From positions 1,922,009 through 1,986,008 of the forward strand of contig JAVTLE010000021.1 of assembly GCA_033439295.1 (NCBI GenBank): DNA of 64,000 nt, written 5' to 3'. The position numbers were made by a program, and so were the translations under genes. The first letter of the stretch is position 1; each line of letters starts with the position of its first letter. The notes under the pieces are model-generated. The model was not told the origin of the DNA. It saw nothing but the letters and a program-made list of their open reading frames with translations, and made no database searches. Positions 1-60,710 of this stretch are shown piece after piece. Source of the DNA: Deuterostichococcus epilithicus. Taxonomy: Eukaryota > Chlorophyta > Trebouxiophyceae > Prasiolales > Stichococcaceae.

Positions 1-2197
1 GAACGTGCCGGCCGCTCCCGATGTCGACCTCGCGGTGCGAGCGGCAGCTGTGTGACCCTGAGCGCTTGACTGCTGCGGGTTGCTGGCGCGCCTCGCCCTG
101 ACGATTCGTGCGCCGTGCACGTCGTGCGCACTTGGCCGGGAGGCGGTGTCTGTTGCTTGCGGTTGCCGCAGGCCCCGTCGCAGCAGCGCAGCAGGCAAAG
201 CCGCAGTGCCTGAAATGTGTGTGCTGCGGTCAGGTCATTGCGCGAGGCACGCCGGGGTTCAGTGGCGCCGAGCTCGCCAACCTGGTCAACATCGCCGCGC
301 TCAAGGCTGCCCGCGACGGCGCGGCGTCGGTCACCCAGGTGCCTCGTGCTGCTATGCCCTCAGTGACCCCCCATCCTGCCGTCGCGCATCGCCGGCGGCG
401 TGCTCCGGCAATGCGTGCTTGTGACCCTCAGGGCGACATCGATCCTCAGGCGACGCCGCAACCCAGGCTGTTCACCTGCGCTTTGGTCCTCTCCCGATGA
501 GCGCGCCATGCTGACAGTTTCCGCGTCTGGTTGCCGGCAGGCGGCCCTGGAGCACGCGAAGGACCGCATCCTGATGGGGGCAGAGCGCAAGAGCGCGGTG
601 CTGACCGCCGAGGGCAGGCGGCTAACGGCGTACCACGAGGGCGGCCATGCGCTGGTGGCAGTGCACACCGCCGGCGCGCATCCCGTGCACAAAGCCACCA
701 TCGTGCCGCGCGGTGCGTCGCACCATCGCACGGCCGCAGCTGGTCGTGGCACGCGGCCGCCGAGCCAGCCGCCTCTGCCGCGCGGCCGGCGTCTGCAGGC
801 GCAGCTGCAAGCCTGCGTCTCTTGCCTCAGCACCCCACAAAGCCGTTGAATCCGGGCAGTCTGCACTGCGCTGCCCCACCAGGCGCTCGCGGTTTCCGGT
901 TTGCCTTACATGCCGGAACATTTGGAAGAAATGATCGCGTGCTGATACCTGCGTCATGCGCTTTTGCTGCAGGCATGGCGCTGGGCATGGTGATGCAGCT
1001 GCCGGAGGCGGCGGACGAGCACAGCATCACCCGGCAGCAGCTGACGGCCAAGCTGGACGTGGCCATGGGCGGCCGCGTCGCAGAAGAGCTCATCTTCGGC
1101 GAGCGCGATGTCACCACCGGCGCCTCCTCCGACCTGCACCAGGTGTGAATTCCTATGGATCGTGACATTGTCTCTGCCTAGACAGCGGACTCCGCCAGGC
1201 CTCCCCTGTCACAACAGCTGCCGCTGTGCGTTCATGCTGTGCGCATTGCTTCGGGTCGTGCGGTGCCGCTGAGCGAGTCAAGCCCCGCAGGCGTCTGAAC
1301 CCCAGCAATGCCGTCCCTCCAACTCCGCCTGCATGGCGGGTGACCACCTGACATGCAGACTGACTACTGCGCGACTGACCGTCATCGCCCTCCCCTGCTG
1401 CGACCGCAGGCCACGCGTCTGGCGCGCGCGATGGTGACGCACTACGGCTTCAGCGAGGTGCTGGGCAAGGTGTCGCTGAACTACGACGACATGGGGCAGA
1501 CGCTGTCGAGTGAGACGCGCGCCCAGGTGGAGAGCGAGGTGCGCTTCTTCCCCCGATGGAACCCTCTTCAAACCTCCTGGATGTGCCCGAGGCCCACTCC
1601 ATGCGCAAATCCCGTCCTTGAAACGCCCGGACGCACTGCGTCCGGCCACGGGAGCTGTGCAGGGACTCTGCCTGGCATGGACAGGCGAGGCCGCTGTGTC
1701 TCCCTGCTGCGATCCTCTGGCGGGGGCGCTTGACTGTGTTTGCTGCTGCTCGCAGGTAAAGAAGCTGCTGGATGCCGCCTACGAGCGGGCGAGGATGGTG
1801 CTGCGTGACAACGAGCACGAACTGCACGCCCTGGCATCGGAGCTGCTGGAGAAGGAGTCGCTCACTGGCACCCAGGCACGCGCTCCCTGACCGGCACCGC
1901 GTTTTAGCTGCCTCAACGCAATGTAGACCGCCTGCAGTGTAGAAACGTGGCTGAGCTGTCTACGTGCTCTCTGCTCTGGCAAAGTGATGCTTGAAGGACA
2001 GGACATCGGTGACGGAATCTGCTGACGGCTTGGCGTACTGCTCGCAGATCAAGGAGCTGCTTGCTGGCCTCAAAGCCAGCAAGTCGGACAGCAAGGACAG
2101 TGGCAGCAGCGGTGGCGCGGGCCTGCTGCCGGTCAAGGCCAAGGCCATGCTGAAAGGAGCAGCCAAGCAGCCGAAGACGGCGTCGGCGGCAGCATGA
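1..2197 (+). CDS. FTSH: FtsH-type AAA metalloprotease (i-AAA/FTSH4-FTSH11 like), 5' part outside the window
   Basis: ATP-dependent zinc protease of the FtsH/YME1 family, which degrades misfolded membrane proteins in mitochondria or chloroplasts. Only the end of the AAA module and the protease domain lie here. Phase-consistent exons: ..2-34, 234-338, 541-712, 973-1142, 1410-1538, 1756-1875, 2048-2197. Visible motifs: the post-SRH segment [16 protein letters not shown], the zinc-binding HEGGH (coded near 640), the downstream loop around [14 protein letters not shown] with its third zinc ligand region, and the C-terminal helix LTGTQIKELL. A lysine/serine-rich tail of about 40 residues follows and ends at TGA 2195-2197. 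The last intron (1876-2047) has a GC donor: reading on past 1875 runs into a stop, while splicing restores the family sequence TGTQ-IKELL. Mitochondrial or plastid location cannot be judged without the N-terminus. Confidence 0.93.
1876..2047 (+). other. GC-AG intron in the FtsH gene
   Basis: The donor reads CAG|GCACGC and the acceptor GCTCGCAG. No GT donor gives the conserved junction, and both flanking exons are in phase 0. This is one of the better-supported members of a set of GC-AG introns in this window. Confidence 0.8.
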
Positions 2198-2500
2198 GCC
2201 TGCCTGAATTCGGACGAAACCAGGGGCAGGGGTGTAGCGTCAGGCAGGAACGGCAGCAGTTTTTAACGGACGAACATTTGGACATTCTGTCTGATGTTCT
2301 GCCTCGGCCTGGTTTGGGCAGAAGGTTACATGGCTTGTAAATTGATTGCAACAGCACACCAACTGCAGACCGGCAGGCATCAATCAATCCGAACATAGCA
2401 GAGTATATTGCATTGCAATGCCGCAGTTTCAAATGGCAAAGTCATGATGCGTGGCCTCGTTCCGGTCTCTGAACTAAGCCTTCGTGCGCTCCAATCGTGT
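2198..2500. other. Convergent 3' gap between FtsH and FLU
   Basis: Tail-to-tail spacer of 303 bases holding the 3' ends of both transcripts. It contains TGTAA on the + strand at 2336-2340 and on the - strand at 2326-2330, so the two mRNAs probably overlap at their 3' ends. Nothing else was recognised. Confidence 0.6.
2336..2340 (+). terminator. TGTAA poly(A) signal, FtsH
   Basis: TGTAA is the usual chlorophyte polyadenylation motif. It lies about 140 bases after the FtsH stop. A - strand TGTAA for FLU lies 5 bases away at 2326-2330. Confidence 0.5.
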
Positions 2501-5500
2501 TTACACCGGCCCATCGGTGTTCATGGACTCGATGTATTGGTCGTAATACCTGCAGAGCATAGCGCAAGGGGCATCAACATGTCTGCGCACCGTGTGCTGG
2601 AGCCGTTGCTGTTGTAGCTCATACGAGGCACGCTGCCAAAGCAGCTGTCCTTGCGCCAAGCAAATGCTAAGTGAGCACTTCAGAGGCCCATCCTCCACGC
2701 AGTGCTGCGCCTGCAATCTGGGACTGATGAAATGAGCAGGCCGAACGCTGCCGCTATGGTGAGCGACCTGAGTCCGCCCGCTGGGAGCTGCCACTAGTGA
2801 TGCCATTGCAGTCAGTGTAACGCAAACATCAAGCTCTGCTGTTTGGGACCAAATGCACAGGTGCGCACTTGGCGGCGGCGTCGAAGTCGCCCATGTCGGT
2901 GTAGATGTCAGCGATGGTGCCGTACGCGTCGGCGTCGCCCACGTGGTCGCCCATTTCGTTGGAGATCTCCAGGACCCGCTTCAGGTGGCTGATGGCTGCT
3001 GTGTACTGGCTCTGCGAGACGAGGACTCGGCAGGGGCTGTCAGCACTGGGAGTGTGCATGACGGCTACACACGGGCAGGACAGCTATGATGCTCACAGGC
3101 TCGTTTGCCTTCCTGGGTAAGCTAGATGAGGTTACCGACCAAACCATATCAGCCAAACTGACACAGGCCCCAACAAGCCAGGCTGAGCAACGAGCATGGA
3201 CCTCGAAAGATCTCTCGTGCTGTCAACAGTGGTGGCCAAGGTTTCCAAGGCGCTCAGGCGCGAGAGGGGCACGCCGGCGTGAGGCTCAGGGGCTGTTGCA
3301 TGCTGCTTCACCTGGATGCGGGAGGCGGCGGCGAGGCCGCGCACGGCCCTCCGCTCCTGGACACGGTTGCCCAGGAACTTGGCCAGCATGAGCGCCTTTT
3401 CAAAGTGCACCAGCGCCTTGGCACCCGCGCCCTCCTTCAGCAGCCTGCGGCACCGGCCGGCCTGGGGGTTCGGGCATCTGCTGCGGCACGCTTCCTTGGC
3501 ACACCATCGTCGATCTGTCGGATCCTCGACGAGGCAGGGCGCGAGCGTGCGGTGTGCACCGGCCGACGATGTCAAGGCGACCCGAGACACAGTGTCAATA
3601 ACATTGGCCATGACAGTCCAGCTCGGCAAGCAGCTGCAGCGGCCACAGGGGAGGGAGGGGTGCTCTGGGCGGCGTTGTTGGGGTTTTGGCTGCGCACCGC
3701 TTTCCCTCGCGCAGGGCCACGAGGCACTGGCGCGCCTCCGAGCTCATCTCGTCCTCGTCGATGCTCATCATGCTCGCCATGCTGGCCGCCCGCTTCATCG
3801 TCGACGGGCTGCGCGGGGGCACGAGCGGGTCGTCACTGTCGGCTCCGTCCCAGGGACCGATGCCGTGGTCGTGCTCGCGTCCAAAAGCAGCGGTGGTACA
3901 GGGTCCGCCTCTCCTGCAAAGTCTCTTCAGAAAGCGGGCACACACCGCGCGAGCCCGTGAGCCCAGCATTCACAGGCGGCAAGCACCTCTCGGGCGCCGA
4001 CACGTTGAGGGCGGCGCCATTGACGAAGGGCACCGGCGCTGCGGTGGCCTGCGCGGTGGCTGCGACGCCGAGCTCCGCACCCGGAGCCGGAAGGTCCGGC
4101 TCCAGGTCGTAAGCAGGGTGGGACGGGTCGCTGGCGCCTGCAATGCATGGGAGGCGTGGGTTGTGAGCGGTCATGGGATTGTGTAGCGAGCCCCATGTTG
4201 TGTTCTAAAGCAACCCTGCACTACGCCCCTCCATACCTGGTCCGCCGTCAAGGCAGTTTTGCCACTCACAGCAGGTCCAGACGCAGCAGGGCAGATGCGC
4301 GGAGCTGAGCAGCCACCCCCGTCAAAAGGGACCCGCTGCAGCCCTGCTGTGAGTGGGCGCGCGGCGGAGGCGCAGCCGTGTCATGGCTCCCGGCACAGGA
4401 GGCGGCAACACCCCCAGGAGACTGGGGCATTTGGGGTTTGGGAAGGGGTGCGGACACACCTGCGGGCACGTAGGTGAGACCGGGCGCGTAGATGGTGCCT
4501 GCCCGTGCCTGCTTCCGCAGGCTGGTGTTGATCTTGCGCAGCTGCTCGTTCAAGCGCTCCACTTCGTCCTTGCGCTGCCGCGACGTCACGCCTGCACCAT
4601 GGAGTGGGTCGAGCAGTGCGACGAGGATCGAGCGGATGTACGCGCAATTTCAGCCGCACAGCTGTTGCTGGTAGAGCCACCCCGGCTGAGCCCATGGTCC
4701 CCACCGTCACTGCAGGCGTGATATTTGGGTCGCCCTAGGGGACCAGCAGCGGCGCCTAGCATGCATGCCGCATGCGTGTGTTTAGCAGTCTTCCGCATTT
4801 CAGCCCCGCGTGCCGCTGCCACCCAGCTGCCACGGCATGCGAGCTTACCAGATTGCTGCCGCCGCGCTACGGCCCGTCCGAGATCGTGCAGCCGACATCA
4901 GAAAGAGCGGATAGTTTGAAGGGCGCCCACCGCCGACGAGGGCGCCGACCAGGGCGACAAACTCGGTGATGCCCACGATGTCGACGCCGAAGGGCGTGGC
5001 GCAAAGCTTGCCGACTTGTGTAGAGCGGCCCTCCTGCTCCAGGTCCACACGCGCCCTATCCAGCTCCGCCCGCACCTGGCAGCGGCAGGACCAGGTTGAG
5101 TTCAGGGTGTTGTTTTAGATTGATATTGATAGTTGCAGGCTGGCTGTACGATGTGCAACGAGAAGCTGTTGCTCGCCCCACCACAACCTCGAGCAGCGCA
5201 CGCCCGACCCGCAGCGCCCGGCCTGCGCTGCAGATGCATGCGGCCACGCATGTGGCGCGGGTGAGCTCCCCGATGCTGCTCCTTGGCACGCAGCCGCTGG
5301 CACCATGCAGTGCCTGCTGTCAGGATTGTCGGGTTGGCTGATAAGAACACACCTCTCGCTCTGTCTCCTGCCGCAGCCGGAACAGCTCCGCCTCCTGTTC
5401 CTTCAGCAGCCCTTGTGCGCCTGCATGTTTGCATGATGCAACGTGTGGCGCATGGAACCGCCGATATTCATGATCAGTCCCTGTTACCCCACACTGAGCA

Positions 5501-5884
5501 GCGTTCAGCCCCACTGCTACGCTGCGCTACAGCTGGGCCGGGGGCTTCATGCATGTCGCCGAGACAGAGGGCCTGCATGCCTGTCGCTGTGAGGAAGGGT
5601 TCTGCCGCCGCTGCCGATGACACCACCAGGCATGCCGACAGGGCTGTGGCTGCAAGGCCGCCCGCCAGCCGCGTTCGCCAGCTGCTGTCTGCTCGGCTGC
5701 TTGATGCAGTGGCCGCCGGTGCATCATCGTGCTGGGCGGCCACTGCTTGCGGGCGGCATGCTCTGCGGCTGACGAGCGCTGCAAGGGGCAGCCGTGGGCA
5801 GCTGCTCGGGAGCGAGGCATGCCGCCCTCTGCGCAGCGGCAACCTGCAGCTGAGGCTGCATTCACTCGAAGTGCGGGCCTGCAT
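2501..5884 (-). CDS. FLU: FLU (FLUORESCENT IN BLUE LIGHT): TPR repressor of chlorophyll precursor synthesis
   Basis: FLU/FLP sits on plastid membranes and binds glutamyl-tRNA reductase through its TPR domain, slowing ALA synthesis in the dark. Exons 5' to 3': 5884-5581, 5420-5353, 5075-4931, 4591-4460, 4137-3987, 3913-3698, 3444-3312, 3011-2869, 2549-2501; about 446 residues. The start is the ATG at 5884. Residues 1-60 look like a transit peptide, followed by a hydrophobic stretch ending SSAAAAEP. Then come a charged coiled coil, a membrane segment (GITEFVALVGALVGG), the FLU signature RQRKDEVERLNEQLRKINTS, a Pro/Ala-rich insert, TPR repeats, and the typical ending YYDQYIESMNTDGPV. It is longer than Arabidopsis FLU (316 residues) mainly through the insert between coiled coil and TPRs. 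The first intron probably uses a GC donor (at 5580); other GT sites nearby are possible. FLU heads away from the tail-anchored gene at 6601. Confidence 0.92.
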
Positions 5885-12078: not shown

Positions 12079-13424
12079 ATGAACGGGCAGGTCACGCGGC
12101 CGTCTGCTGCGCCCAGCCTGCGCTCGAGCATTGTCGCGCGGCCTTTCTGCACGAAGCAGCCCCGGCATCGAACAACAGCAGTCTGCAGTGCTGAACCGCA
12201 CCGCCATGCAGAGGAGTCACATGTCAGCATGAACAGGCGGCAGCTACTAGCTGCGGCGCTGGCAGTCGCGGCTGTGCAAGCTGCACCAGCCACAGCCTAC
12301 ACTCCGCCGCCGGCAGGCGCGGCGACGCATGCTTGCTTTGGCTGCCGTGTTCACTCTCACAAAGCGTGCCATTAATCATGCATCTGCTTACACATCAGCT
12401 CCTATATCTCTGCGCTTGCAGGCAAGCGGAGAAATGTGGACGTGCTGGATGGCTATTCTTTCCTGTACCCAGAGGACTGGGCAGTGGTGACGGTGAGACA
12501 CCGCTGCTCATTGCCTCGCAGGTTGATGCCCCAGGGGGATGCACTGCACTATCCGCACAAGCAAGCTGCGCCGACGTCGTGTGTCCATATGTCTGCCCAC
12601 AACGCGCCTTGCTCCGCAGACATCCGGCAATGACATCTTCTACCGCAACCCCTACAACGTGGAGGAGAACCTCTTCGTCAACATCACGTCGCCGTCGTCT
12701 AGCAGCTTCGACAGCGTGGAGAGCCTCGGCACCCCCCAGCAGGCGGCGCAGCGGCTGCGGCAGCAGTATCTTGGCGAATTCATGTCCACGCGGCTCGGCA
12801 GCCAGAAAAAGGCCGAGATCCTGAGTGCCACCAGCAGGACGGCAGACGGACGGCTGTACTACGACATCGAGGTGGGGCGTTTGGCACTTTGCTTGCCTCT
12901 GTGTGCAAGCAGTCCAGACGGCCGCCTGACGAGCAGTCCCCATCAACTTTGCGTCCATGCACAGCCCTCTGCATGATGTCCCATCCTCACCTCCGGTCGT
13001 GCCCATCCTGCTGCAGATGCGGGCGCAGTCGTACGCCTCCCGCAGCCCGCTTGCGTCCACGCAGGCAGAGGTGGACGCCTCCTTCGAGAAGGAGTGGGAC
13101 AGACGGCTCGTGACCACGCTGGGCGTCGCCGGCAAGCGGTTGTACGAGCTGCGGCTGCAGACGCCGGAGACCAATTTTGAGCGCAACGAGGCAAGAGTCT
13201 GCCGGGCCGCCCAATCGTGCTTGCTGTCATTGTGGGAGTCACGGTCCATCTTGAGGCTGGCAGAACGCGTGCTGCGAGCCGGCCGTGGACACATGTGTCG
13301 ATCAGCACCTGTCTGCGCTGTGATGCGCAGTTGAGCTCTCACTCTGGCTGCGTGTCCTTGGACGGCGCAGGACCAACTGAGGGCGATCACCTCGTCATTC
13401 CGCTGCAAGGAGGTCGAAGCCTGA
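12079..13424 (+). CDS. PsbP-domain protein of the thylakoid lumen
   Basis: A PsbP-like (PPL/PPD) protein, related to the 23-kDa subunit of the oxygen-evolving complex. Exons: 12079-12316, 12422-12492, 12620-12871, 13017-13190 (or 13196), 13371-13424; about 262 residues. A bipartite target signal is visible: a Ser/Arg-rich plastid part, then a twin-arginine motif (MNRRQLL) with a hydrophobic core ending APATA, so Tat export to the lumen is expected. The mature part shows family blocks: DVLDGYSFLYPEDW, GNDIFYRNPYNVEENLFV, the SQKKAEILSATSRTADGRLYYD region, WDRRLVTTLGVAGKRLYELR and the ending SSFRCKEVEA. The first intron uses a GC donor (GCAG|GCGCGG). At the fourth intron either GC after 13190 or GT after 13196 fits. 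Which PPD subgroup it belongs to was not settled. Confidence 0.88.
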
Positions 13425-14123
13425 TCTAGCTGAGGTGATATGGGCCGATCAGGGCACCCGGGCGGGGCATGCGAGTGGTTTTGCTTCACACTGCCTGACA
13501 ATTGCGGTTGTTCTCCCGTCTGCCGCTGTCACCTGTGAGACGCACGCGTTTCAATTCGGATCAATAATTTGATCGGCAACCGTTCGGATGTGGCCAATGG
13601 GCGTCCCAGTCCACCAGCAGCTGCAAGTAGCGCCAGCATATCGCATCACACAAGTTTCAAGACCGACTGCCCTTTGCTTTGCCACTTCTGTCTGTGTTGC
13701 ATGCTTAGCCAACCCCGCTTGAGTGCATCCCGCCAGCTCGCGCTCTGAACTTCGTTTCAGGGGTAGTGTCCTACTGTCCTTTGCCTTCACGTGCAGCGTA
13801 CTGGAGAGGCGAGGAGGGTTTAGGGTATAAGGTAGGGTTAGGGTTTAGGGGGTCAGACTGTCTGCGCGTCCCTTGGTTGGACACCAGTTACTCGTTCTTC
13901 CGATCTGTTCCTATCTTTTTGCCCACAGTGCGTCAGACTTTATAACGAATCGGTGACAGCTGCTTCTGATGCTGCGCCAAGCCCTCCGCTCGCCGTGAAA
14001 AGGCGACGTTCGCCTCGCGATTCGTAACATCCGTTCGAACAACACTGCGGTACGGCGCGGCTGTGCGCCTGCAGCTATCCAGTGTCTCGCGTGCTAGTCC
14101 TTTAAAGCCTTTTGACTATCACT
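13425..14123. other. Intergenic region with telomere-like repeats
   Basis: About 700 bases hold the 3' end of the PsbP-domain gene and the upstream region of the small Cys/His gene. Apart from the telomere-type run listed separately, nothing was recognised. Confidence 0.5.
13816..13851 (+). repeat. Interstitial telomere-type repeat (TTTAGGG)
   Basis: TTTAGGG occurs at 13819-13825 and 13844-13850, with TTAGGG at 13838-13843 and degenerate units between. TTTAGGG is the telomere unit of land plants and Chlorella. Genes on both sides show it is internal rather than a chromosome end. It may be a repair scar, a remnant of an old fusion, or a telo-box upstream of the next gene. Confidence 0.75.
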
Positions 14124-14741
14124 ATGACGTGGGTGACGCCGCCGAGGCAGCAGCAGCAGCCGCAGCAGGTGCCGATGCTGCGGACGTCGAGTGGCATACC
14201 GTGCCAGCCTCAGGCCTTCCAGCAGCTGCAGACGGCCTTCAGCGCACCCGAGGGAGGCTTGGCGAACCTGGCAGTGCCAGTGCACCGGTGCACGCGCTTC
14301 TGCGAGTTCCAGCATTTCGTGGGGAACGTCTACATCTGCGTCTCTTCAGGCAAGGCAGCCTGGCGCATTCAAGCAAGCCTTCGCGGTATTGCTTCTGCTT
14401 CCCAGACTGAATGCTATGTAGATTATCTGCCCGTGCATGCACTCTGCTGTGATTTATGGATCTGCTGGTCCTGGCGCAGGAACGCAGCACATTTGCGACC
14501 AAAATTGCACGCAGCGGGTTCAGGTGATCATCGATCCCGACAGTCGCTGATACCAAGTCGCACTGTCCGGCCTGATTGACACAATTCTCATATTATCACG
14601 TCTCTGCAGGTCGACAGCCATTCATCAGTCTGCAGACTCAGCCGCAAAACCTTTCACAATGCGGCGCTGCCATCCCGTCAGGTGCGAGCTCAAGCTAGTT
14701 GGCAGCTGCATAGCACACAAGTGATCTGTCAGTTGCGGTAA
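14124..14741 (+). CDS. Small Cys/His-rich protein, probably zinc binding, unknown
   Basis: About 133 residues from exons 14124-14349, 14480-14523 and 14610-14741, all in matching phase. The N-terminus is Gln/Pro-rich (RQQQQPQQV). The C-terminal half is a compact Cys/His module: HRCTRFCEFQHF, VYICVSSG, then TQHICDQNC and VCRLSRKTF. Paired C..C and H..C..C spacing suggests a treble-clef or zinc-ribbon-like fold; that is inference. The first intron has a textbook GC donor (TCAG|GCAAGG), and splicing there brings the second half of the Cys pattern into frame. The last exon may end earlier in another splice at 14684. It begins about 270 bases after the telomere-like run. Confidence 0.55.
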
Positions 14742-17019
<2,278 letters not shown>

Positions 17020-17032
17020 TTTTGAAGGACTG

Positions 17033-17256: not shown

Positions 17257-20200
17257 TCACCAGAGGAACGCCAGGTATGAAACCATGCAGAGGCCGACGG
17301 AGATGAATGTCACCTGCCAGGCCCAAAACAGCAATGCTGAGCCCGAAAGCAGGTTCAAGCCGTTTGCCCGCAGTGGCTTTGCACGTACGTTACAGAGCAA
17401 GCAGCCAGGGCTGTATGAAATTTGGCCACACGCAGCCAGCGTGCACGGGTCAGAGCACTGCAGACAGGACACACCGTGTAGAAGGCGGGGTAGCTCAAGG
17501 AGTGAGTGTTGTTCAGGTTCATCGCATACCTGAAGAAAGAGAACCGAGAGCACATGAGTCGGGCACATGCACCACACTGGCTGGCACTGCATCAAGCAGG
17601 CTGGCAAATGACGCTGCCGTATTGTGAACGCGGAAGTATATTGGTGGGCGAACACTTCCGCACCATCCTGTCACCACAGTGATGAAGCTCTGCAATCACC
17701 GAGGATTCACGTAACACAATGGTTTGCCGTCATCTGTCAGCACAGTGGCTCATGCAGCCTTTCGATCAATGGTGTGCCAAAACCATGCCGCACCATGGAA
17801 ATCATTGCGGCAGTGGCGAGCAGATCCAGCCGAATGAGCTGATTCCTGTGGTTGTCCTGCACAAGCCCACGACGAAAATTTGATGACGTGCACGACAGGC
17901 TCTCAAATTGAAGCCGGGCAGCCAGAAACCTAGAAGAACCTCTTGCTGTGAGCAGACAAGCTTGGCATCCGCCAGCAAGCACCAACCTGCTCGATGTCGA
18001 TGTAGTCCTGTGGTCACACATGCCTCGGCATTCAGAACCAACGAAATCTTTGCCGTCGCTATTCATGCCCAGCTGGAGCGCGCCGCACGCCGACTGCTCT
18101 GGACATGAACCCCCACCAGACAACTGCGGCAGCCCCAGCAGCGTACCTCTGTGTCGTCCACATACTCGTACAGGGTGGCCAGCTTGTTCTCGGTGCTGGA
18201 CACCTAACAAACGACATGCGGTGATGTCAGCACCAAGTTGACCTGCAGCAGCGTCACCCGCCTGCGCCCGGCACGCAGCACACATGCAGGCGCAGCAGCG
18301 GAGGCAAGCAGCTCGGCTGCGCTGCGGTCTCGCACGCGGCCAGCCCAGTGCATCGACTGACGTGTGCGAGGGCAGCCGGTGCGAGAAAGCAAAAGCGAAA
18401 CATCGTTCCTGACTCCAGGCGGGGTGTGAGACGGCGACGGCACATCACGGTGACGACACATCACGGAGAAGATGCATCGCTGTCCAGCGTCCACAACGGG
18501 CGCGCCTGCATGAAGTAGGCCTCGAGCAGCTGCTCCACAAAGTCCAGCGCCTCCTGCGCCCGGGCCTTTGCCTCCTCCTCCGCCTCTTCGTCCCGTTGCG
18601 CCGCCGGCGATGACGGCTGCTGCCCCGCCTGCTGCTGCTGCTGCCCCGGCTGCTGCTGCTGCTGCCCCGGCTGCACATTCTGCGCGGGCGACGGTCCGTC
18701 AAGACTTCCACCTTCCACCATCCAGCTGCATGCCGTGTGCGCGTCAAGGCGCGGACTGCAGCCAACCGCGCCAGCCAGCAACGACAGCTGGCAGATCGCC
18801 GTCCCGCTTGACGCCCGGCCGCCTCTGCAGACTGCAACCCACGGCGGGCTCTGCGGCACCAAGGCATGCAGCGTCCAGTGTGCGCCAAGTGCCTCCCGAT
18901 CCGCAGCCCTGTGCACGACATGTAGCGTGGAGCTGGGTGTGTGCGGCGCACCTCGGCGTCGCCGCCGGCCTTCTCCGCGTCGAGGGAGATGCGCTTGAGC
19001 GCGGAGGTGCGGGCGTCCGCCTCGGCCGCCTTGGCCGACAGATTGAGGTCCAGCATGTCGGCATCGTCGTCCAGCAGCTTGCCCAGCAGCTCCTTCATCT
19101 GCGCCCCCAATCGAACGAGAGACTCAGACACTCGACACACTCGACAAAACACTCGATTTGAATCGCGTGAGATTGAACGGAAAAGGTTGCTTGCACACGG
19201 CCAGTGTTCCCAGGCTCGGCATGTCCGCATTGTCCTCCAGCAGCCCCCTCATCTGCGCCCAATGTTGCACAATACGCACCAGCACCAATTGCAGAATGCT
19301 CCTGTTGGGTGTGACGCACAGAGGCGAGCCGTGTTGCAGGGCCGACTCGGCGAGGGCGCAGGGCGCACTGCGGCCGAATGCAAGCGACATGCGCATTGGC
19401 GGCGTGCCGCACGTGCAGCCGAGAAAAGGATCATCTGCTGGACATCGCCGCAGGTCAGCGACGGACCGACGGAGTGGATAGCGACGCCCCATGGGGTAAC
19501 ATAAAACAACTCCCCTCCGTTCTGAAGGCGTGCAGTCGCACCGTCTCAACGCGTGTCTTCAGGCGCACGAGCCGCGTCTTCACGCGCCGCACCCGCTCCA
19601 GCGTCTGCGTCGTCACCTTGCGTGTCAGCGCGTCCAGCGCTGGGTGCGCCGCCGCCTCCAGGTCTGCCGTTTGCTCCGCTAAGTGGCGGCACACCTGGCG
19701 GGGGCGAGGGGACATGGGTCTCTCGGCAAAGCTGTGCACTCTCTCGCCGCCTCCAGGTCCGCCGTTTGCTCCGCCAGGTGCTGACGCACCCGGCGGCAGG
19801 GCAAGGACCAAGGGTCGGGCTTGTCTTGTCAAGAGATTTCATACCCTGCTGCGGACGGCAAGCTGGCCACTCGTCAAGCGTCTCTCGACATGGGTGTACT
19901 CCAGACATACTTCAAAACACCCAGCGCTCCACTCCGTCTCTGTCCTAGAGAGGTATCACATCGGCTGTCGAGGCAACCCCAGGACGAGAGCCATGCGTTG
20001 AAGCAATCGCGATATTGCTACGCCGTCTCTGCTGCAGCTCACCATGTCCAGTGCGACTTCCAGGGCGCGCAGCTCGAAGGGCGAATCGCCGGCTGCTAAA
20101 GTCACCTCCTCCTCCTGCCGTGCCCCCGGCTGTGGCTTGCCATTGCCATCGCCGCCGCCGCCGCCGCCGAACAGCCGCCGGCTGAGCGTCTCCACAAAGC

Positions 20201-21014
20201 TGATTGCATTCTGCTCCTCTGCGGGTAGCGCATTGAAACCCGCCTTTAGATGGTGACTGCCAAACATGCAGCACCCCTTTTGCACACATCCTGCCGCCTC
20301 ATCAGAGGCAGCTGGCACACAGAACGCCCTCCATGGCTGCCACGTGCGCTGCCGCTTGACCGCATGCACTGACCCAGACCCACAACCAGGGCAGGTTTCC
20401 CACGAGGCGCGCCTGGGTTCAGGATGAGCACGCAGTCACGGGTGACGACTGCCTTAACGAACTCCAGGTTGAGCACCAGCGCCGCATCGCGGGCCAGGAT
20501 GGCCGACGGGTAAGACGTCGCCAGCTGTGGGTCCAACAGCCGCAGGTCCCGCAGCTGCGTGACATCACATGCTATCGTTGACGTTATCATTCCAGCAGGG
20601 CACTCAGCCCCAGCCTGCGATCTCAAGTGACGGCAGAGTCAGGGCGGCGGCGGCAGTGGTGGTGGCTGGGCCAGCGCGCTCTTTTTCGCATCTGCAACCA
20701 CTCAAACAGCCGCCTGGACTGTTGGGCCAGGTGTTGCTGCGACCGATACAGCTTCGGCGACTAACAGGGTATGACGTGCGCACCTGGATGCGGGTCTGCT
20801 CCGCTATCTGGAGCTTGTCCACGTGCACAACGGAGGTACGGCCGGTGGCTTCCAGGCGCAGCCACTTGCGAGCGGTGCGTTGCTTGTTGCGCTCCAGGCG
20901 CTGCTCCAGGAACGGCTGCCGCAGGAACGCCGTCTCCAGCTCCGAGGTGGCCGAGTCGGAGCGCTTCAGCGGCTGGGTGAGCGACGGCCGGGGGCTGGGC
21001 TTGGCGGGCGCCAT
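17257..21014 (-). CDS. MRS2: MRS2/CorA-family magnesium transporter with AMN signature
   Basis: Two-TM Mg2+ channel of the CorA/MRS2/MGT family. Exons 5' to 3': 21014-20784, 20554-20413, 20218-20043, 19694-19542, 19252-19199, 19098-18952, 18679-18506, 18203-18147, 18007-17987, 17856-17794, 17689-17664, 17529-17475, 17313-17257; about 451 residues. Family blocks appear in order: [57 protein letters not shown], a DDDADM acidic motif, [38 protein letters not shown], then TM1 and TM2. A Gln-rich GQQQQQ repeat lies before LLEAYFMQ. Oddities: the near-universal GMN at the end of TM1 reads AMN (WYAMN); exons 19252-19199 and 19098-18952 look like tandem copies; one exon has 21 bases; two introns use GC donors (after 18506 and 20413). 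There is no clear plastid signal. Confidence 0.9.
17987..18007 (-). other. 21-base microexon of MRS2
   Basis: It encodes DYIDIEQ between ACCACAG and GTTGGT. The residues are the family block that directly follows YVDDTE, so its inclusion is firmly supported by homology. Confidence 0.8.
18952..19252 (-). repeat. Tandem duplicated exon pair in MRS2
   Basis: Exon A (19252-19199) and exon B (19098-18952) both start after GGGCGCAG with ATGA(G/A)GG(G/A)GCTGCTGG and encode the same acidic motif, NADM and DADM. Both begin and end in phase 0, so either, or both, can be kept without a frame change. B matches the family over more of its length. Confidence 0.65.
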
Positions 21015-21952
21015 GCTTGCCCGCACACCACAGTGGCTGTGTTGTCAGCGGTGGCGCGGCATCAGACCGTTGCTTCGCAGCGCTGCCCCAGGCTGCCAGG
21101 GCACTTGGATCTCTTGAAAAAGCGTGAAGGATGCGCCGCGGTTCGTCAGTGATCGAAATGCACCCAAGGGACAGGCTGCGGAGCGGCGCTTGGATAGGTG
21201 CCTCAGCCAAGCTGTGGCTCTTGAAAATTGTGCCTGGCCGTGTGCGGAGGAACAAGTTCCAGTTCAGCTGCCAATGTGGGCAGAATGTTTTCGCGAATCG
21301 CAACACTCGTTCCGGGGCGAATTTTTTCATGAGTGCAGCCAGATGAGGGGCAGAAGTCGAAGGGGAGATTCTTTGTCGTGCAACGTGTCGTGCAAACGCT
21401 CACGGTGATGCACGCAATGCACTTTGCGAAAAGACTACAAGCAGTGCCATCATCGAAGGCAGTCGGTCTTCGCGCAGGCGGATGTCACAGGCAGTTGTTT
21501 GTTGTGGAGATTGACACCGGGGTCGTCAGGCACCTCCAGGTCTCACAAGACGTGCCGAATAGGTTGACGCAACCAGCTGCGGGCCCTAGGGTCGTTGCGC
21601 ATGATATCTCGACGATCCATCTGTGCGTACTTTCGCTGATCCCCGGTGCAGATTCAAGCTGATTTGCCTTTGATGTTACGAGTTGCTCGGTTCTTGCTCG
21701 GGGGTTTGAAAAGTATACTTGACAGTACTTGGTGGTCTTGCAGGTGCTTTCGGATCCCTGTGCGTAGCCGCATTGCTGATCAGCACAGTGTGGCGGCGCC
21801 ACAGGGGGGCGTGGCAGCTAGCCGCGCTGCCCGGCTCCTATACAGACCCTTACGCAAGGGCTGCGGCTGCCGGTTTGGCGCTGTCACGCCAGCAGCACCC
21901 TAGCAGGATCGGCGCGCACCGACCGCGGAGCCCTCGCCGCGCTGCGCACAGA
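21015..21952. promoter_or_regulatory. Divergent region MRS2 / SGNH esterase, possibly with an extra 5' exon
   Basis: 938 bases between outward-pointing ATGs. From 21743 a frame stays open into the esterase exon and encodes a hydrophobic span (GSLCVAALLISTV) followed by basic residues. It follows a plausible acceptor (TCTTGCAG), so the esterase may start further upstream. Confidence 0.4.
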
Positions 21953-38336: not shown

Positions 38337-38368
<32 letters not shown>

Positions 38369-41280: not shown

Positions 41281-44177
<2,897 letters not shown>

Positions 44178-46762: not shown

Positions 46763-47047
46763 AGCAAGTGGATTGCATGGTGCACCGAGCAAGATATTGT
46801 GCACCGAGCGAGATGGTTTAGCATTTACTTGTCAAACACTGGGGAGACGAAACGATCAACAGCAAGGTAGCCCAGCTTGGGCGCTCATAATGTGCCATGG
46901 CACCAGACTCACAGCACGATGATACAAGAATCAAATAGCAATGCAATTCGTCATCTCTCTGCCGCTTGCCGCTCAGACAGTATTGAAGAGCCTCTCTGAA
47001 GAGCCTCTCTACGAAGCTTTTGTGTGACGTGCACTTCTTTGTGGCTC

Positions 47048-50646: not shown

Positions 50647-53600
50647 ATGCGCCGGCTGATTCGTCGGCTTCAGGCCACCGCGCGTCTCACCGTATTATTT
50701 GTGACTGCAGCAGCCACGCTGTTGCTGCTGGTTGCAACCACAGTCCCGCGCTCGATGAGTGCCGCAGCAGGAGCGGCAGCAAGCAGCCTGGGGCCACGAC
50801 CAGCTGGCTGTGCCGGCATTCTGCTGATGTCAAATTGCCGCGGTGCGTGCCGCTGCAAGCAGCATACACGCTGGACCCATCGCAGCAGGGCCATGCTGCC
50901 GCCAGCTAGCTCATTTGTCCGCCAGCCTGTCAGAACAACCCCTCATGTTGAGGGCTCACAACCCGCTGTCGTGGCCCCGTATCACCGCAGGCGTGTTGTC
51001 GGTGCAGGTTCAGGTGTCACAACTGCTGCCGGCGTCGAGACCACAGCGCTGGCAGCAAAGGCGCGGCCGGTGGACCCAATTCTAGCACACTCGCCACGCG
51101 TTGCTGTGTCTGACACCAGCTTCCTACTGGACGGCCGTCCGTTTCACCCCTCCGGTACCAACTGGTGCGTCGCCGCAGCTGCGCCAGTGCAGTGCGAACC
51201 ATCCTCACAGTGTTCCTACGCTGGCTCTGCGTGCGGCTGGAAAAGGCACCCCTTAAGGCATGAGCCACCCCATACCCCAATCTCTATGCAGCTGGTGGAC
51301 TCCAGGCGTCATGCTGGATTCTCGAGTCTCCGCAGGTACGACCTCATGAAGGCAGAGAACTACAGCCCCGCCGCCATCCGTCGCAGCCTGCGCATGCACT
51401 GGGACCACGGGGTGCAGGTGTGCACACCAACATCCGAGCGCGCATACACCGGGGGGCAGCTCCCAGATGTCCGTCGGCAGCAGTACAGGATGGTCAGCAG
51501 GGGCGTGTAGTGCCATGGTTTGAGTGTTTCAGCAGCTTCCCTTGCGCAGGTGCTGAGGGTGTTTGGTCATATCAATGGCTTTGGCGGTGGCGATGAGGAG
51601 TTGTCAGATTTCCCGTTCCAGCCTGTGCTCGGCGTCTTCAACGAGACCAATTTGCGACGCTACGACCTCGTGCTTGATGAGCTGTCCAAGGCGAGGCTGG
51701 ACCCTGCATCGCCTGCGCACTCGACCTGTGCATAGAGCTGCAGCCTGCAAACCTAGATCGGCCACAAACTCTCGCTGATTTCCGCCGATGCCCAGCTGAA
51801 TGTTGGCGCAGGTCGGCATCCGCGTGATCCTCACGCTGGCAAACTACCACCCCAGCCTAGGGTCGATCAAGTGGTGTGTCCCACTCTGCGCTGCGTGTCC
51901 GGCCTACTGCTGCGCTGCACAGCGCTCTGTGCTAGATGCCACAACGTGCTATGCAACAGCTGATGACATGCTGCCGGCCAATTGCTGCAGGTATGTGGGC
52001 AGCGTCGCAAATGCCAGCAGCGCCACAATTGCTGCCCTTTACCGGACGGCCGACAGCACCACGGTTGGGCAGGCAGCTGCGGCAGGGGAGGCTGCAGACG
52101 GCGGCGGCGGCGATGCAGCCGCCGCGGCGCTCAGACCAGAGCTGTTTTACACAGAGCCGCGCGTGCGCGCAGCGTACAAATCTTGGGTGAGCGCTGTCAG
52201 GCCACCGCATGAGGATTGCAGCACAACGATGTCTGTCTGCAGGCGCTGCACGATGCTTGCTGCTGCCGTCGAGCACAGACACAGGCAGGGAGCAGGCCTT
52301 CCTTTCCAGATGACTGTCAGGCAATAGCATGGCATGCATGATTAGTGCAGGTGCGCCATATCACGCAGCGAACCAACACCTTTAATGGGCGGAAATACTC
52401 GGAGGACCCTACCATCTTTGCCTGGTGACCCACCATTGTCCTGCATACCATTTTAACAGTTGTTCACCCCTAGTATGCGTGGAGTCAGGCTTTGCCATGG
52501 TGCATTTCCACCTGCTCGCGGCAGGCATTCTGCACCGTCCGGTTGCCTCGTCCTGACTCGTCATATGTTGCAAGCAGAGCCCACCACCAATGCTGGCGTC
52601 ACACACAAGTGCATCAGCATACAGCCTTGGCACTCGCATACCACACGTCCATGCATCATATCGATGTTCTGCTTGCTGCAGGGAGTTGTGTAACGAGTGC
52701 CACACCAGCGTGGACTACGAGCTGCACCGCACGATTCCCCCGGGCAGACTGCTCCACAACTGGCTGGTAGATGCGCGTGATATATGGAAATCAATTGCAA
52801 TGTCTTGCTAGACAGGCGGCAGCCTGATCCTCGTGTTTGCTCGCTTGATAGTCGTTGCAAATCTGCAGCTGCTGCAGTGCAATTCACGACCTGCTCATGC
52901 TGCAGGTCGAGATGTCTACCTTTTTAAAGACCGACCTGCAAGTACAGCAGCTGGTGGCAAATGGCAACGACGGCTTCAGGTCCCATGGAGCTTTCGATCC
53001 TGAAGCGCCGCTCTCAGACGTGCGTAGCTTCTAGCGAAGGATGGTCTTGCCGCACGTTGAGGCTGGTTTTGCTGTGTGGAGACCTGCAGACATTGCCTGG
53101 CAAAGCTTTTGGATCTGGATATGACTGCCCTATCCCACCCGCAGCCATTCAAGAACTTGACCATTGGCGCCCACCACGGTAAGCCTGTGGCACACAGAGA
53201 GTGCATGCATGCGTCATGCTTCACGTTGCGCCAGATCTGCAAGGTAGGGGCGCTTGAGAGCGGCCATGCTTATGCCTGCCGCCGCATGCGCCGCAGGCGA
53301 AGATTTTGCTCGGACGCTGACCATACCCACCCTGGACTTCATAACGACACACATCTATGTGAGGTCCCTCAACCAACAGGGTTCAACTCTCTGGCAAGAA
53401 TTGTTCGTCACTGCTCTGCCGCTGCAACCATGCGTGCACTGCCATGATCACGACAGGTCTGCCGATGGCCCAGCAGTAGTTGGTCACGCTGACATGTCAA
53501 GCATGCGAGGCCATGAGTACAACCGTCTGTGTTTGGCGCCGCTGCAGCCGGACCACTTTGATGTGCCGTCATACGCCTTTCAGTGGGTCAACGACAATTG

Positions 53601-56491
53601 GCTAGGTGAGCGGCCACTGTACTGCGCAGTGCTAGGCATTATGCCTGGCTTGACAAAATCATGCAAACTCCTTGCCAAAGCCTTGTAGATAGTTGCTGAA
53701 CCACGACGGCTCCCTGCCGATCTACGACAAGCAGCAATCAGCATTGGTGTTGGCAGGCGAGCGACAGGCCATGGCAGCAGCCGCCAAGAAGCCCTTACTG
53801 CTTGAGGTGCAGTATTGCAGGCTGACAGCGCTGGCAACCGTCCTCTGCACTCCGGCATCTCTTGCCTTGTCCTGTGCCTATTTCAGGGTATGTTGTGGCT
53901 GATCTGATGGCAGGAGGTGGGGGTGCCCAATTCCTATGGGGCGTCCCGCGATGCTGTACTCCGAAGGTGGGAATGGAAATTGCCTTCGTGTATCACCGCT
54001 GCATTGCCTTTCCATCCTTGTCCAACTGAAGTCTCCGTCAGCTCAACTCGCTGCACGCGCTGCCCAGTGCACATGCGTGCAGTTGCAACAAATTGCGCGC
54101 GGGAGCGACGGGATGAGACCTGAATATCTCCACTGTACTTAACGTTGGTGCCCAGTGTGCTCGGCGCTGCGCACCACTACGGGGTGGCCGGCACACTCCT
54201 CTGGTCGCTGTACACGCACGCGTGAGCTACTCAAAGTGCAAGCAACCTCATCGTGTTGTTCCTTGCTGCAGATGTAAATGTCGCATAGACACAGCATACG
54301 TCCGTGATACCGGGCTGTGCGAAACTTCAGCCTGCCAGGCTGTTGGTCTCCTTCTTGCAGGCCGCCACAAATCCTGCCAGCTGGCGCAAATCCGCGCGAA
54401 CCATTCCAGGGCCCTGACTACTACTTCTTTAAGTGTGTGGCCTCCATCAGCAGCGTGACAGGAGGCTGCCTTCTGGCTGAACAATCACGCCAGCAGCTAT
54501 GCTGTGCTGTTTGTACACGCCTGCAGCTGCACGCGTTCAGAACCAGCTAGTTTGGGCATGTGCCGCACAGATCCGTGTGCATATTATCCGGTAGCAGCTG
54601 CCTGACTTCCTGATTGGTGTTTGTGCTGACTGCAGCTACTCCCAGCCTGGCAGCAGCACAGCTCAACAGGAGTTCGAGTACCAGCTGACTCGAGTACGCC
54701 GCCTCATCCCACGCTCTTGTCCTGATCGCATTGCTGTGTTGCATGAGGCTCAGAGATGAAATGACCTGCAGCCACTGCAGGCTCAAGTCTCAAGTACGCC
54801 TTGGGCAACGCAGCCAAGGATGTCTGTGTCAAGCTGACCTGAACATTTGCTTTTGGCCGGGCAACAAGCGACTGTTGTGTCCGCAACATGTTGCCATGCG
54901 TGCAATGTATGCTTCAACTTCAAAGCATCCCTCCCAGTTCGCGCCGCATTGCCGTTCCATTGCAGCCCATGGCGGCCAGCAAAGGCATTGCAGCGCCGCC
55001 GCCCTTCGCATATGCGGCATTCAAGTTCAACGCCTGCGCAGCACCCTGCAGCGACGCGCCGCCGACCAAGGAGCTGAACTGCACGCAAGAGGCACGCACA
55101 GCAATGCCAGCTCACTTGCTGTATCTGATATGGCCCAGGGCAACGGCCAATTGCCCATCATGCTCGGCCCTGTGCAGCCCTAAACAATGTAGCGGTCAGC
55201 GCAATCGCTGTCGCTGTTGGTGGTTGCGCTGCGAAATGGTCATGAGGTTTGTTGCAGGCGCAACAGGGCAATTGCAGCACGGACGCCTTCATTCGGGGCA
55301 GTGCCACACACCCGGAGGGATTCTGCCAGATCAGCTGCGGCCGCTGCAGGTGCCAACAGACGCCGTCACAGCGCCTGCAGGACTTGCGGCTGGTTCCTGT
55401 GATCCGGTCGCAACGTCGTTGCCTCGGGCTGCGGCCTGACTGCTGATGCTGTGCACGCCCCTCGCCTTACTTCATAAACACGGCATCATGAGGCCCATGA
55501 CGCCATGAAACCAGCCCAGCTGATGAAGAACCATGACGTTTGGACTGCGGCGCTTGTTGTGCAGTTGCTTCATGTTGGACACTCCGCTCCCGGGCTGCGA
55601 CTGCACCGACGGCGCTCCTGATGAGCGGTACACCTGCGCCGATCAGGTGCGCTGACCACCACTTGTGTCCTGGCCTCGTCACAACGGCCCAAGGAGAGTG
55701 AGTGCCATCCTCGGATGCTTTCGCATGTCAGCCCACGGACGAGGCCTTTTTCACAGTCTTCGATATGGGTCCGCCTGCTGATCACAACTCCCACTACAAC
55801 TGCAGAGGACAGCACTGGGTTTGTCGCACTCTACTCGACCTGACTGGGCTGTCGTCTTGCTGAGCCACAGTTGAGCTTCGAGGCGGACGCTGGCGGCCCT
55901 GGGTCGAAATGCTGCGTAGGTGCGCTGTCCGGTACAGGCTGCCGCCAGTCTCGAAACACTCGCAAACCTGTGCCCAGATCTCGCTGTTGATGAGGCGTCC
56001 GTGGTGCAGCGAGTGCAGCATTTGGTGCAAGTTTCGCAGGCTTCATGCTGGAAGGCGACCGGATGAACCCGCGCGGCTACTGCGAGATCACATGCGGCCG
56101 CTGCAGGTGCTGCTCTCCGCTGGCTGATGCCTGTGCGTTGCGGGTGGCACAGGAACGTTGGCATCGCACCCAGCCTGCTGCTGCATCTGCTCGTCACGAT
56201 ACATAAATCCATACCTACATTCAGAGGCCTGCCATCCACAAACGTGCCACAAACATTGGACGTCTTTTTGCTGCGCTGTAAAAGTGCATGCGACCTGTAG
56301 TGCGGTAAACCGCAGTCCGGCTGCCCACATGCAGTTGCGCTCCCGGCGGCGCCGCCATCCAATGCAGGAATGGCACGGCACTGCAGCTGCGGTCGGGGCA
56401 GGGCAGCGGTAGCGCCCTGCGGCCTCCCATGGCAGCGGCGCTGCTCCTCGGCATCTGCGCCGCCGGTGCCGCCACTCTGCTGCAGTCGTGA
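50647..56491 (+). CDS. GH5 endo-beta-1,4-mannanase with cysteine-rich modules and hydrophobic ends
   Basis: Likely plant-type (GH5_7) mannan hydrolase acting on the cell wall. Exons: 50647-51164, 51336-51417, 51550-51690, 51812-51873, 51991-52186, 52351-52424, 52682-52766, 52906-53019, 53145-53178, 53297-53358, 53548-53605, 53742-53806, 53914-53966, 54156-54221, 54361-54432, 54636-54693, 54966-55091, 55258-55349, 55565-55646, one unresolved exon, 56040-56106, 56368-56491. The N-terminus is a signal anchor (LTVLFVTAAATLLLLVATTV). Family blocks: PFHPSGTNWYDLM, VLRVFGHINGFG, GVFNETNLRRYDLVLDE, IRVILTLANYHPS, EDPTIFAWELCNE (acid/base Glu), DFITTHIYPDHF, KPLLLEEVGVPNS (nucleophile Glu) and TLLWSLYTH. 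Two modules then end in FCQISCGRC and YCEITCGRC. The C-terminus is hydrophobic (ALLLGICAAGAATLLQS), GPI-signal-like. The usual NEP motif reads NEC. Two introns are GC-AG (after 51690 and 55091). The first exon may hide an intron. Confidence 0.85.
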
Positions 56492-57994: not shown

Positions 57995-60710
57995 ATGGAC
58001 CGTGCCGAGCCCGATGTGCAGCAATGGGCTGTGGCGGCGCAGGTGCGAGCGGAGGCGCGGGCGCCGGACGCTGCCAGCGGCAGCGGCAGCGGCAGCGGCA
58101 GCGACACGGATCTGGACGCCATCGCAGAGACTGTAAGGACAGTCACCCGGCCGCTGCCGCGGGTGCTTGTTGTGCACACCGGGGGGACACTGGGCATGGA
58201 CCCAGGAGTGTCGTACAGTCTCGACGCCGACGGCAAGGCCGTGCTGGCCGCCGGCACAGGAGGCACCTACTCCGGAGGGCTGCGCCCAGGTCGGACTTGG
58301 TTTGTGGACTTCAAACCAGCATCACCAGCCGCTGCACCTGTGTGCAGCACTGTGTAATGGCAAACCACATCAACTCGCATGCATGCTTCTCCTTCTCACT
58401 GTGCACGCCTTTGCTCACAGGAACAATGCTGAAGAACCTGCTCCAGGTAGTGGGTGTTCGTCAAGCGTATGTCTGGCAGCAATATGAACTGCTGTCTCAG
58501 ATCCTGGCGCGACTGGATGTTTCTACTTCTGACCCGCCTGCTGTCTTTACAAGGTGGTGCCGGAGCTGTCGGCCATTGCCAACCTGGACCTGAAGGTGGC
58601 CTTCAACCTCGACAGCTCGCGCGTCGGGCCCCAGCAGTGGATTGAGCTGGCCAAGCTGCTCGATGCCAACAGGCCACACTATGACGGCTTCCTGGTCGTC
58701 CATGGTGAGCGTTCACATCACAATGGGCCACTGCTATGACTCTTATGCCATTGCACAATGCTGACCTGTGGTGCCCATGCCCTCAGGCACGGATACGATG
58801 GCTTTCACAGCAGCCGCGCTGTCGCTCATGCTCGCTGGCTTCAAGAAGCCCATCGTGCTGGTGCGCTGCTAGGACGCTGGTACACAAGCTCGCATGGTGC
58901 CTACCGCACCATGCACGCCATCACAGTGTTCCAATCTCGTCGACACATGTGTGCTGCGCCCCGATTGCGGTCTGTGTCCGCTCAGACAGGGTCCCAGCTC
59001 CCGCTCCTGCTGCCGCGGTCCGATGCTCGTCAGGTGCGCAGCCGCACAAGGTGCGTTGTCGTCTTCTCTATCTGCAGCTGCTGCTTGGTGCGGCAATCGC
59101 CCTCTCTGCAGCGCTGATGCTGGCTCCTTGTGCGGCTCGCAGAACCTTGTGGACAGCCTGACAGTGGCTGTGGACAAGCCGGCACATAACCGCCTGTCCG
59201 AGGTGTCGATCTGCTTTGGCGGCAAGCTGCTGCGCGGTAATCGGGCGCAGAAGGTGGGATCACGCTTCACGTGGCTTAGCAGGAGATGTTGCAGATGCGA
59301 GTGCTTCAAGTGCAAGCCGGCAACATCTTGTGCCCGGCGCGAACATGCACGTGCCGTCTCTGCAGGTGCACTCCTCATCGTATCAGGCATTTGCAAGCCC
59401 CAGTTACCCGCCGCTTGCAATTCTGGGCGTGGACGTCGAGTGGAGGTGGGTGCAGCCCGATGTGCATCATGCAAATGCATCACGGCTGTCATGACCAGTT
59501 GCCCACGACAACAGGACACGTGCTGAAATCTGCGGTCATGGGCCCTGTGTGTCCTGTATGCAGGCCTGCCTACCTCCTGCAGGTGTGTGCGCTGCCATGC
59601 TCCAGAGCAGAAAGGAGGGTTTGGGGCCATTGTCACGTGCAACCGCTCTGTACTCGTTGTGGACAATCCTGCATGTCCTCAGCAACCGTCTCTGTATGGA
59701 TACGCTGCCTGTCGGCCTGCATGTTGATTCTGATCCGGTGTGTGTGTGCCGCGCAGCCGCAAGGCGCATACAGCCCCCGCTTCGAGCTGGACCCTGCGGT
59801 TTTGCGCATTCCCATCGTGCCGGGCACAGATCCGAGGACGAGCTATGGCGACCTGGCGGGTGACATGACAGTCCGTGCGGGTCCCTGCTCTTGACAACCC
59901 TGGCATTTGATGCTTGTTGGCGGGGGTCGCTCCTGAAACCGGACTGTGCGGGACTGCAGCGCGGGGCGTGAAAGGTGTCGTTCTCGAGGCCTTTGGCGCT
60001 GGCAACATGCCAGACGACTCAGCACAGCATCACTGGCTGCCGTGGCTGCGGGAGCAGCGGCAGGCGGGCCTGCAGTTAAGCGCCTCACTTGGAAGCCTTG
60101 AGAGTCCCTGCGAACGGGCTCTTGTCATGCAGCTTGCGCGTCGTGCCACCAGAGCTGAGATGTGTGCCAGGCATCGTATTGACAGATGTGGGTGTTGAGC
60201 TGCAGGTCTACCTGTCGTCCCAGTGTCTGAAAGGTAACACTGCATATCTGCTGGCTTTGACCTGACGATTGGAGTGCTTGCTGGGCAGGTGCAACGCGCT
60301 TGATCAATCATAAACTGCTCGTATTGCTGCAGGCGGACTGCAGCCTGAGCTTTATGCAAGCGGTTCGGGAGCACTGGCCGCCGGATGCGAGGCTGGCCCG
60401 CTCATGACGGTGACATTCTTGCCATATAACCCCAAGCAGCGGCCCTGACTTGAATTGTCTATTGGAACAGCACTTCTGTCCCTGTTCAGCGCTGACACGC
60501 CAACTGCAATGTGCTGTGCAGCCGGAATGCGCAGTCGTCAAATTCATGTTCCACCTCAGGTCCGAGCTGTGCATCACTGTCAAACCAGTTCATCCATCCA
60601 TGTTTGATCGAAGACGTCGATCGCGATCACCACAATACGAAGGGAATATGTATTGACTGTGCAGGTATCCGGACATCTCTATGGGCGTGCCTTTTGTGGG
60701 CGAGATGTGA
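57995..60710 (+). CDS. L-asparaginase, cytosolic type I (AnsA-like)
   Basis: Hydrolyses L-asparagine to aspartate and ammonia. Exons: 57995-58289, 58421-58446, 58554-58704, 58787-58860, 58986-59033, 59143-59253, 59366-59449, 59757-59859, 59960-60063, 60206-60233, 60333-60409, 60522-60559, 60665-60710; 394 residues in perfect phase. Catalytic motifs: LVVHTGGTLGM (first Thr), FLVVHGTDTMAFTAAAL (second Thr-Asp), GFKKPIVLTGSQLPL (Lys). Further family blocks: VPELSAIANLDLKVAFNLDSS, GVKGVVLEAFGAGNMPD, PECAVVKFMFHL. An acidic Gly/Ser repeat (GSGSGSGSD) precedes the catalytic domain. The intron after 60063 seems to use a GC donor (CAG|GCGGGC); the donor of exon 59366 could also be GT at 59434. No signal peptide is present, so the cytosol is likely. 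Confidence 0.92.

Follow-up and report, generated by a model that had tools for sequence, protein, structure and literature searches.

GC-AG introns are a described feature of several algal genomes, and the figures quoted here are those found in excerpts of the cited papers. Iwata and Gotoh (2011; PMC3033335) gave GC-AG shares of 7.7% for Chlorella sp., 22.2% for Micromonas pusilla and 39.6% for Aureococcus anophagefferens, and about 55% of donors are GC in Emiliania huxleyi (PMC7779022). Chlamydomonas reinhardtii has 532 U2-type GC-AG introns beside 25053 U2-type GT-AG introns (PMC2846911), which by our division amounts to 2.1%, and the mean over plants is 1.2% (PMC6310983). GC-AG introns go unmentioned in the excerpts examined from the genome paper on Auxenochlorella (PMC12636532), and a literature search pairing such introns with Trebouxiophyceae found no paper. 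Here we examine predicted GC-AG introns in the 64-kb stretch of DNA presented above (the window, to which all positions refer), which has a G+C content of 62% and carries intron-rich genes on both strands. The GC-AG share in the window is about 5–7%. This excess is very likely genuine and lies near the predicted 7%; of the 12 sites listed in the original prediction, about ten stand, five of them firmly. We think it highly likely that the introns are of the ordinary U2 GC-AG type and belong to a GC-rich green alga in which composition has raised their share.

Pfam and PDB matches identified an FtsH/YME1-like protease, a TPR protein, a PsbP-domain protein, a YtqB-like rRNA methyltransferase, an MRS2-like transporter, an ABC1-family kinase, a glycine decarboxylase P-protein, a protein arginine methyltransferase (PRMT), a GH5 mannanase, an asparaginase and an EBP-type sterol isomerase. 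To ten conserved genes we applied a splice-aware protein alignment, which placed introns in nine of them, charging the same penalty for every non-GT donor and adding each of the 15 non-GT dinucleotides in turn as a donor. Profiles came from prokaryotic relatives (GCSP, 80 sequences; FtsH, 25; ABC1, 21 of 25 loci; asparaginase, 3; PsbP, 7 of 9) or from PDB sequences (methyltransferase, 2; PRMT, 1; EBP, 1; mannanase, 3; MRS2, 1); PF06962 was not found in the 10 genomes searched, and PDB alignments were therefore used for the methyltransferase. Allowing GC donors gained a total of 46.2 nats through five introns, compared with 11.5 for CA, 10.6 for TT and 9.4 for CT, the runners-up. The 14 other dinucleotide classes had 28 placements, of which 24 are makeshift repairs no more than 100 bases away from a GC site among the five. 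When donor context was left out of the score, GC gained 28.0 nats and the next class, TG, 10.5, and all but one of the five GC sites were retained. An earlier run on five genes gave the same leader, both with context (GC 22.2, next TT 8.3) and without it (GC 9.1, next GG 4.5). Homology thus placed 74 introns, 69 GT and 5 GC (68 and 5 with a shorter PsbP region), a GC-AG share of 6.8% with an exact 95% interval of 2.2–15.1%; this departs from 1% (P = 0.0009) and is compatible with 7.7%. The P-protein (18 introns), PRMT (9) and EBP (4) genes contained no GC introns. The MRS2 alignment placed no introns and therefore has no bearing on the two sites in that gene.

At five sites (Table 1), a GC donor is required at a conserved protein join. 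Read-through of the FtsH intron meets a stop after four codons (ARAP); the last full exon holds GTs at 1798, 1805 and 1857, of which the nearest, 1857, is out of phase with the acceptor, and use of 1798, the sole in-phase GT there, would delete 26 codons of conserved sequence. The FtsH join is gapless against yeast YME1 and bacterial FtsH in four alignments among the matches listed, and the site gained 7.6 nats in a gene-finding hidden Markov model (HMM) at flat GC odds, but just 1.0 in the spliced alignment with context. The methyltransferase donor gained 15.3 nats in the spliced alignment with context and 12.0 without it; its join is gapless against 3EEY and 4PON, and the PF06962 match scored 117.5 bits with the GC join, compared with 103.1 with the GT join chosen by the HMM. 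In the kinase (10.2 nats with context, 6.3 without), the SIAQ-VHKA junction is gapless in all four PDB alignments among the matches listed. The mannanase site at 51691 gained 8.7 nats with context and 6.7 without, the latter run additionally yielding a doubtful GC donor at 51999, and its join is gapless against 8GF3, 4QP0 and 3PZ9. The asparaginase site gained 10.9 nats with context and 2.9 without, and an Asparaginase_C match crosses the join; its ab initio score was -0.6 nats at flat odds. All 12 donors of the original prediction read (C/A/G)AG/GC at the positions given, to the nearest base for those on the minus strand. Five of these introns are firm and five probable, the P-protein site is ambiguous and the Cys/His site is unsupported; the claim that GC is the sole workable donor in most of them holds by the present tests for five of the 12.

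Table 1. GC donor sites considered in the window; a slash marks an exon-intron boundary.
Feature	Coordinates	Strand	Donor and phase	Status
FtsH/YME1-like protease intron	1876..2047	+	CAG/GCACGC...CGCAG/AT, phase 0	firm
TPR (FLU-like) gene intron	5421..5580	-	CAG/GCATGC, phase 1	probable
PsbP-domain gene intron	12317..12421	+	CAG/GCGCGG, phase 1	probable
PsbP gene, possible extra GC-AG intron	13191..14213	+	GAG/GCAAGA; HMM choice	ambiguous; absent from the original prediction
Cys/His gene GC donor	14350..14351	+		not supported; 5.4 nats below GT-only at flat odds
YtqB-like rRNA methyltransferase intron	16073..16246	+	CAG/GCCTGC, phase 0	firm
MRS2-like Mg transporter intron	18204..18505	-	CAG/GCGCGC, phase 0	probable
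MRS2-like gene, second intron	20219..20412	-	CAG/GCGCGC, phase 1	probable
ABC1-family atypical kinase intron	27728..27977	-	CAG/GCAAGT, phase 0, SIAQ-VHKA	firm
P-protein transit-peptide region candidate	33077..33297	+	CAG/GCGAGT	ambiguous
GH5 mannanase intron	51691..51811	+	AAG/GCGAGG, phase 0	firm
Mannanase Cys-rich tail intron	55092..55257	+	GAG/GCACGC, phase 0	probable
Type I-like asparaginase intron	60064..60205	+	CAG/GCGGGC, phase 0	firm

The gene finder, a two-strand HMM that was trained solely on the window and restricted to GT donors, settled at 164 introns, their donor consensus lying near CAG/GTGCGC and their acceptor consensus near YNGCAG. Retraining with a 7% GC prior, the share originally predicted, gave 168 introns, ten of them GC, comprising eight of the 12 listed sites and two others; both totals agree with the roughly 160 introns predicted. 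When the parameters were fixed at the GT-only fit, the optimum GC share was 0.05 (8 of 165 introns), with a score 16.1 above the base run, compared with 12.5 at a share of 0.01 and 8.4 at 0. The predicted share of about 7% is borne out by homology and approached ab initio. Given a 7% share for each class in turn, GC had the largest gain of the 15 non-GT dinucleotides (15.7; next TC, 8.9). All 15 classes offered together yielded 3 to 5 GC introns at 0.01 each and 4 to 8 at 0.02 each, GC being the commonest non-GT class at the latter setting. By itself the ab initio evidence is moderate, because few sites gain at a 1% prior and the usage counts are not cleanly separated. The self-trained model also describes splice sites that depart from GTAAGT: GT donors prefer GTGCG, with G at +3 in about 84% and C or A at +4, and acceptors prefer GCAG, with G at -4 in about 76% and C at -3 in about 94%. 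An initial gene model, unsupervised and loosely penalized, was discarded (374 introns, tiny exons), and GC introns chosen by the HMM at 33019-33272 on the minus strand, opposite the P-protein start, and at 52773 were judged spurious and excluded.

These results bear on the possibility, unlikely in our judgment, that GC introns were over-called: in GC-rich DNA a GC is always nearby, so that false GC introns would arise around a true share near 1%. GC accounts for 12.5% of dinucleotides in the window, GT alternatives exist at several of the 12 sites, and under a 1% prior the HMM alone prefers GC at few of them. There is also a precedent in a nematode gene set, where the GC-AG share fell from 8.9% to 0.8% after re-annotation, indicating that a high share can be an annotation artefact (PMC5906903). 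However, the 14 other dinucleotides, allowed at an equal penalty, gain far less in the conserved genes, and a share of 1% fits poorly with five GC introns among 74. The dinucleotide controls answer in part the concern raised by the nematode study.

The composition of the donors themselves suggests how these introns could be tolerated. All 12 listed donors read AG/GCNNG, with G at +5 in 12 of 12, compared with 246 of the 855 AGGC sites in the window; the bases after GC are variable, as had been predicted, but this constant G had been overlooked. The combination of AG before the donor and G at +5 occurs in all five firm GC introns and in 26 of the 69 GT introns (P = 0.011), and matches to the U1 complement, excluding +2, average 5.80 of 8 in the GC donors and 4.32 of 8 in the GT donors (P = 0.002). 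GC donors thus carry a stronger remaining context than GT donors, a partly circular observation, and four of the five strong-flank GC sites were also placed without donor context. Phase 0 is found in five of five firm GC introns and 44 of 69 GT introns, and median lengths are 172 and 178 nucleotides, respectively. The U12-type donor motif RTATCC (taken from PMC2846911) is present in none of the 12 listed donors, indicating that they are not U12-type. The donor pattern is as expected if U1 tolerates a mismatch at +2 in sites that are otherwise strong. At GC donors, strong flanks can compensate for the +2 mismatch. From sequence we infer that the introns are actually spliced, that U1 pairs with them and that mutation produced them as follows. 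The major spliceosome would remove the GC-AG introns, U1 pairing with the donor despite the +2 mismatch, which is stated for GC donors in PMC7242645; the mismatch would be tolerated because AG at -2/-1 and G at +5 bring the site closer to the U1 complement than the average GT donor. The GC share may have been raised because composition pushes GT towards GC, with such changes surviving at donors whose other positions are strong.

The share could instead be set by the splicing machinery. It is distinctly unlikely that a relaxed requirement at +2, through modification of U1 or U6 or a protein change, turns GC into a second regular donor and makes the share differ between close relatives by machinery and not by composition. 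We regard as very unlikely an altered recognition of the 5' splice site (a variant U1, a U1 modification or protein, or a change in U6 or PRP8) under which GC would be a second regular donor. Such a reading draws on PMC3033335, where the GC-AG excess in Aureococcus and M. pusilla is called an enigma and RNA modification or U1 proteins are suggested; yet the same paper reports a standard U1 5' end in Aureococcus, M. pusilla and Micromonas RCC299, and the GC donors studied here keep strong flanks, as if compensating for a mismatch, an argument that is partly circular. The excerpts of PMC3033335 leave open whether composition or machinery sets the share. Sequencing, assembly or allele errors that turned GT into GC are extremely improbable, as random errors would not be expected to give five firm sites that interrupt genes open elsewhere and that all have G at +5, even if one T-to-C change would suffice per site.

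Several observations weigh against our preferred reading of ordinary GC-AG introns raised by composition. The interval on the share is wide, resting on five firm introns in one window chosen for looking odd, and doubts attach to some of the 74 placements, such as ones in the PsbP and mannanase regions; a share of 2% is excluded weakly (P = 0.017), a value not corrected for the way in which the window was selected. The run without context lost the FtsH site and added the doubtful GC donor at 51999. In the HMM, usage counts at a 7% share were poorly separated (GC 9, CT 8, TC 6), all 15 non-GT classes offered together at 0.002 or 0.005 each yielded no GC introns, and a 1% prior gave an ab initio gain at four of the 12 listed sites only, clear for FtsH and marginal for PsbP, MRS2 20412 and mannanase 51691. 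The enrichment of donor context is partly circular because that context entered into both the spliced alignment and the HMM. Finally, the link between GC-AG introns and G+C content is rather weak outside three species (PMC3033335).

Among the probable introns, the FLU-like site was picked by the HMM at the 7% GC prior and gained 0.8 nats at flat odds, with a donor context of +2.3 compared with -5.6 for the in-phase GT alternative at 5565; Pfam gave no domain at this join. The PsbP donor at 12317 has a context of +3.9, compared with -1.2 for the in-phase GT alternative at 12347, and its join falls just upstream of the conserved PsbP domain called by Pfam. At MRS2 18505, PF22099 scored 16.4 bits with the GC join, 13.6 with a same-length GT join and had no match with the GT join of the HMM, and donor context favored GC over the same-length join (+5.2 versus -6.7); counting against the site, its ab initio score was 2.6 nats below GT-only at flat odds. 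The second MRS2 site gained 2.9 nats at flat odds, has a context of +5.2 compared with -0.3 for the in-phase GT at 20403, and shows no gap at the join when matched, weakly (E 0.001), to human MRS2, while Pfam stands 1.2 bits against it (36.9 with GC, 38.1 with GT). The mannanase site at 55092 gained 2.4 nats at flat odds, and by manual reading of the Cys-rich repeat, on which the rating of this site depends, the join preserves the CxxxAxxGxC spacing, which we take to be that of ShK-type domains; a Pfam search of this tail found no domain. At 54966-55646 on the plus strand the mannanase gene seems to extend into this Cys-rich tail, with two ShK-like repeats.

The remaining sites are less clear. 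In the P-protein, a rival GT-AG intron at 33081-33220 is equally open and in frame; donor context favors GC (+4.7 versus -1.1), and the ab initio score is -3.7 nats at flat odds. The Cys/His donor was judged ab initio only, no homologue having been sought, and its gene model is unclear. The possible extra PsbP intron, about 1 kb long, would join the PsbP core to the last exon near 14214, and the Pfam PsbP match extends into the exon that follows it. Its donor context is +1.7, compared with -3.0 for the GT at 13197, six bases downstream in the same phase; the spliced alignment used donor 13191 with an acceptor at 13370 in one setting, and left it unused in later settings.

The TPR gene is the one named FLU in the original prediction, a name that was not confirmed. 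The top match of the PRMT gene is an entry named PRMT 4.2 (384 bits, compared with 191 for the next), which we take to be an Arabidopsis protein. The motif TGTAA, presumably the green-algal poly(A) signal, lies within 700 nt of seven of the 12 gene ends checked (15 were predicted), where 0.26 would be expected per end. Together the PRMT match and the motif point to a probable green-algal host, one with high G+C. An Rfam scan of the window returned no families, and hence no small nuclear RNA and no U1, and a tRNA scan of the window gave no matches. A predicted gene at 46599-49940 on the minus strand has repeated short basic motifs that, we presume, resemble NUMOD3-type DNA-binding motifs, and another at 21274-24441 on the plus strand reads like an SGNH-type esterase, with a GDSIS motif in its translation.

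If the share holds genome-wide, GT-only gene finders would break about one intron in fifteen in genomes of this kind and so truncate conserved proteins. Another alga of intermediate share could also help to test G+C content against the splicing machinery, a question open since Iwata and Gotoh. The original prediction of unusually many GC introns is correct in that the share is several-fold above 1%, but such a share is not unusual for a GC-rich alga. Chlorella sp. is likewise a GC-rich green alga, and its 7.7% (PMC3033335) is compatible with the five of 74 found here, although that figure is genome-wide and transcript-based, whereas ours comes from one window with splicing inferred from sequence. 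M. pusilla and Aureococcus also combine high G+C with many GC donors, at shares three to six times our estimate. Emiliania huxleyi is an alga with abundant GC donors too, but there GC is the majority donor. C. reinhardtii, a green alga with the same intron class, has a share of about 2%, just under the lower bound of our interval. The GC-AG excess in the window is a further instance of a feature already reported for GC-rich algae, and because the same has been reported in others, such as Chlorella, it is an expected oddity that calls for no new mechanism.

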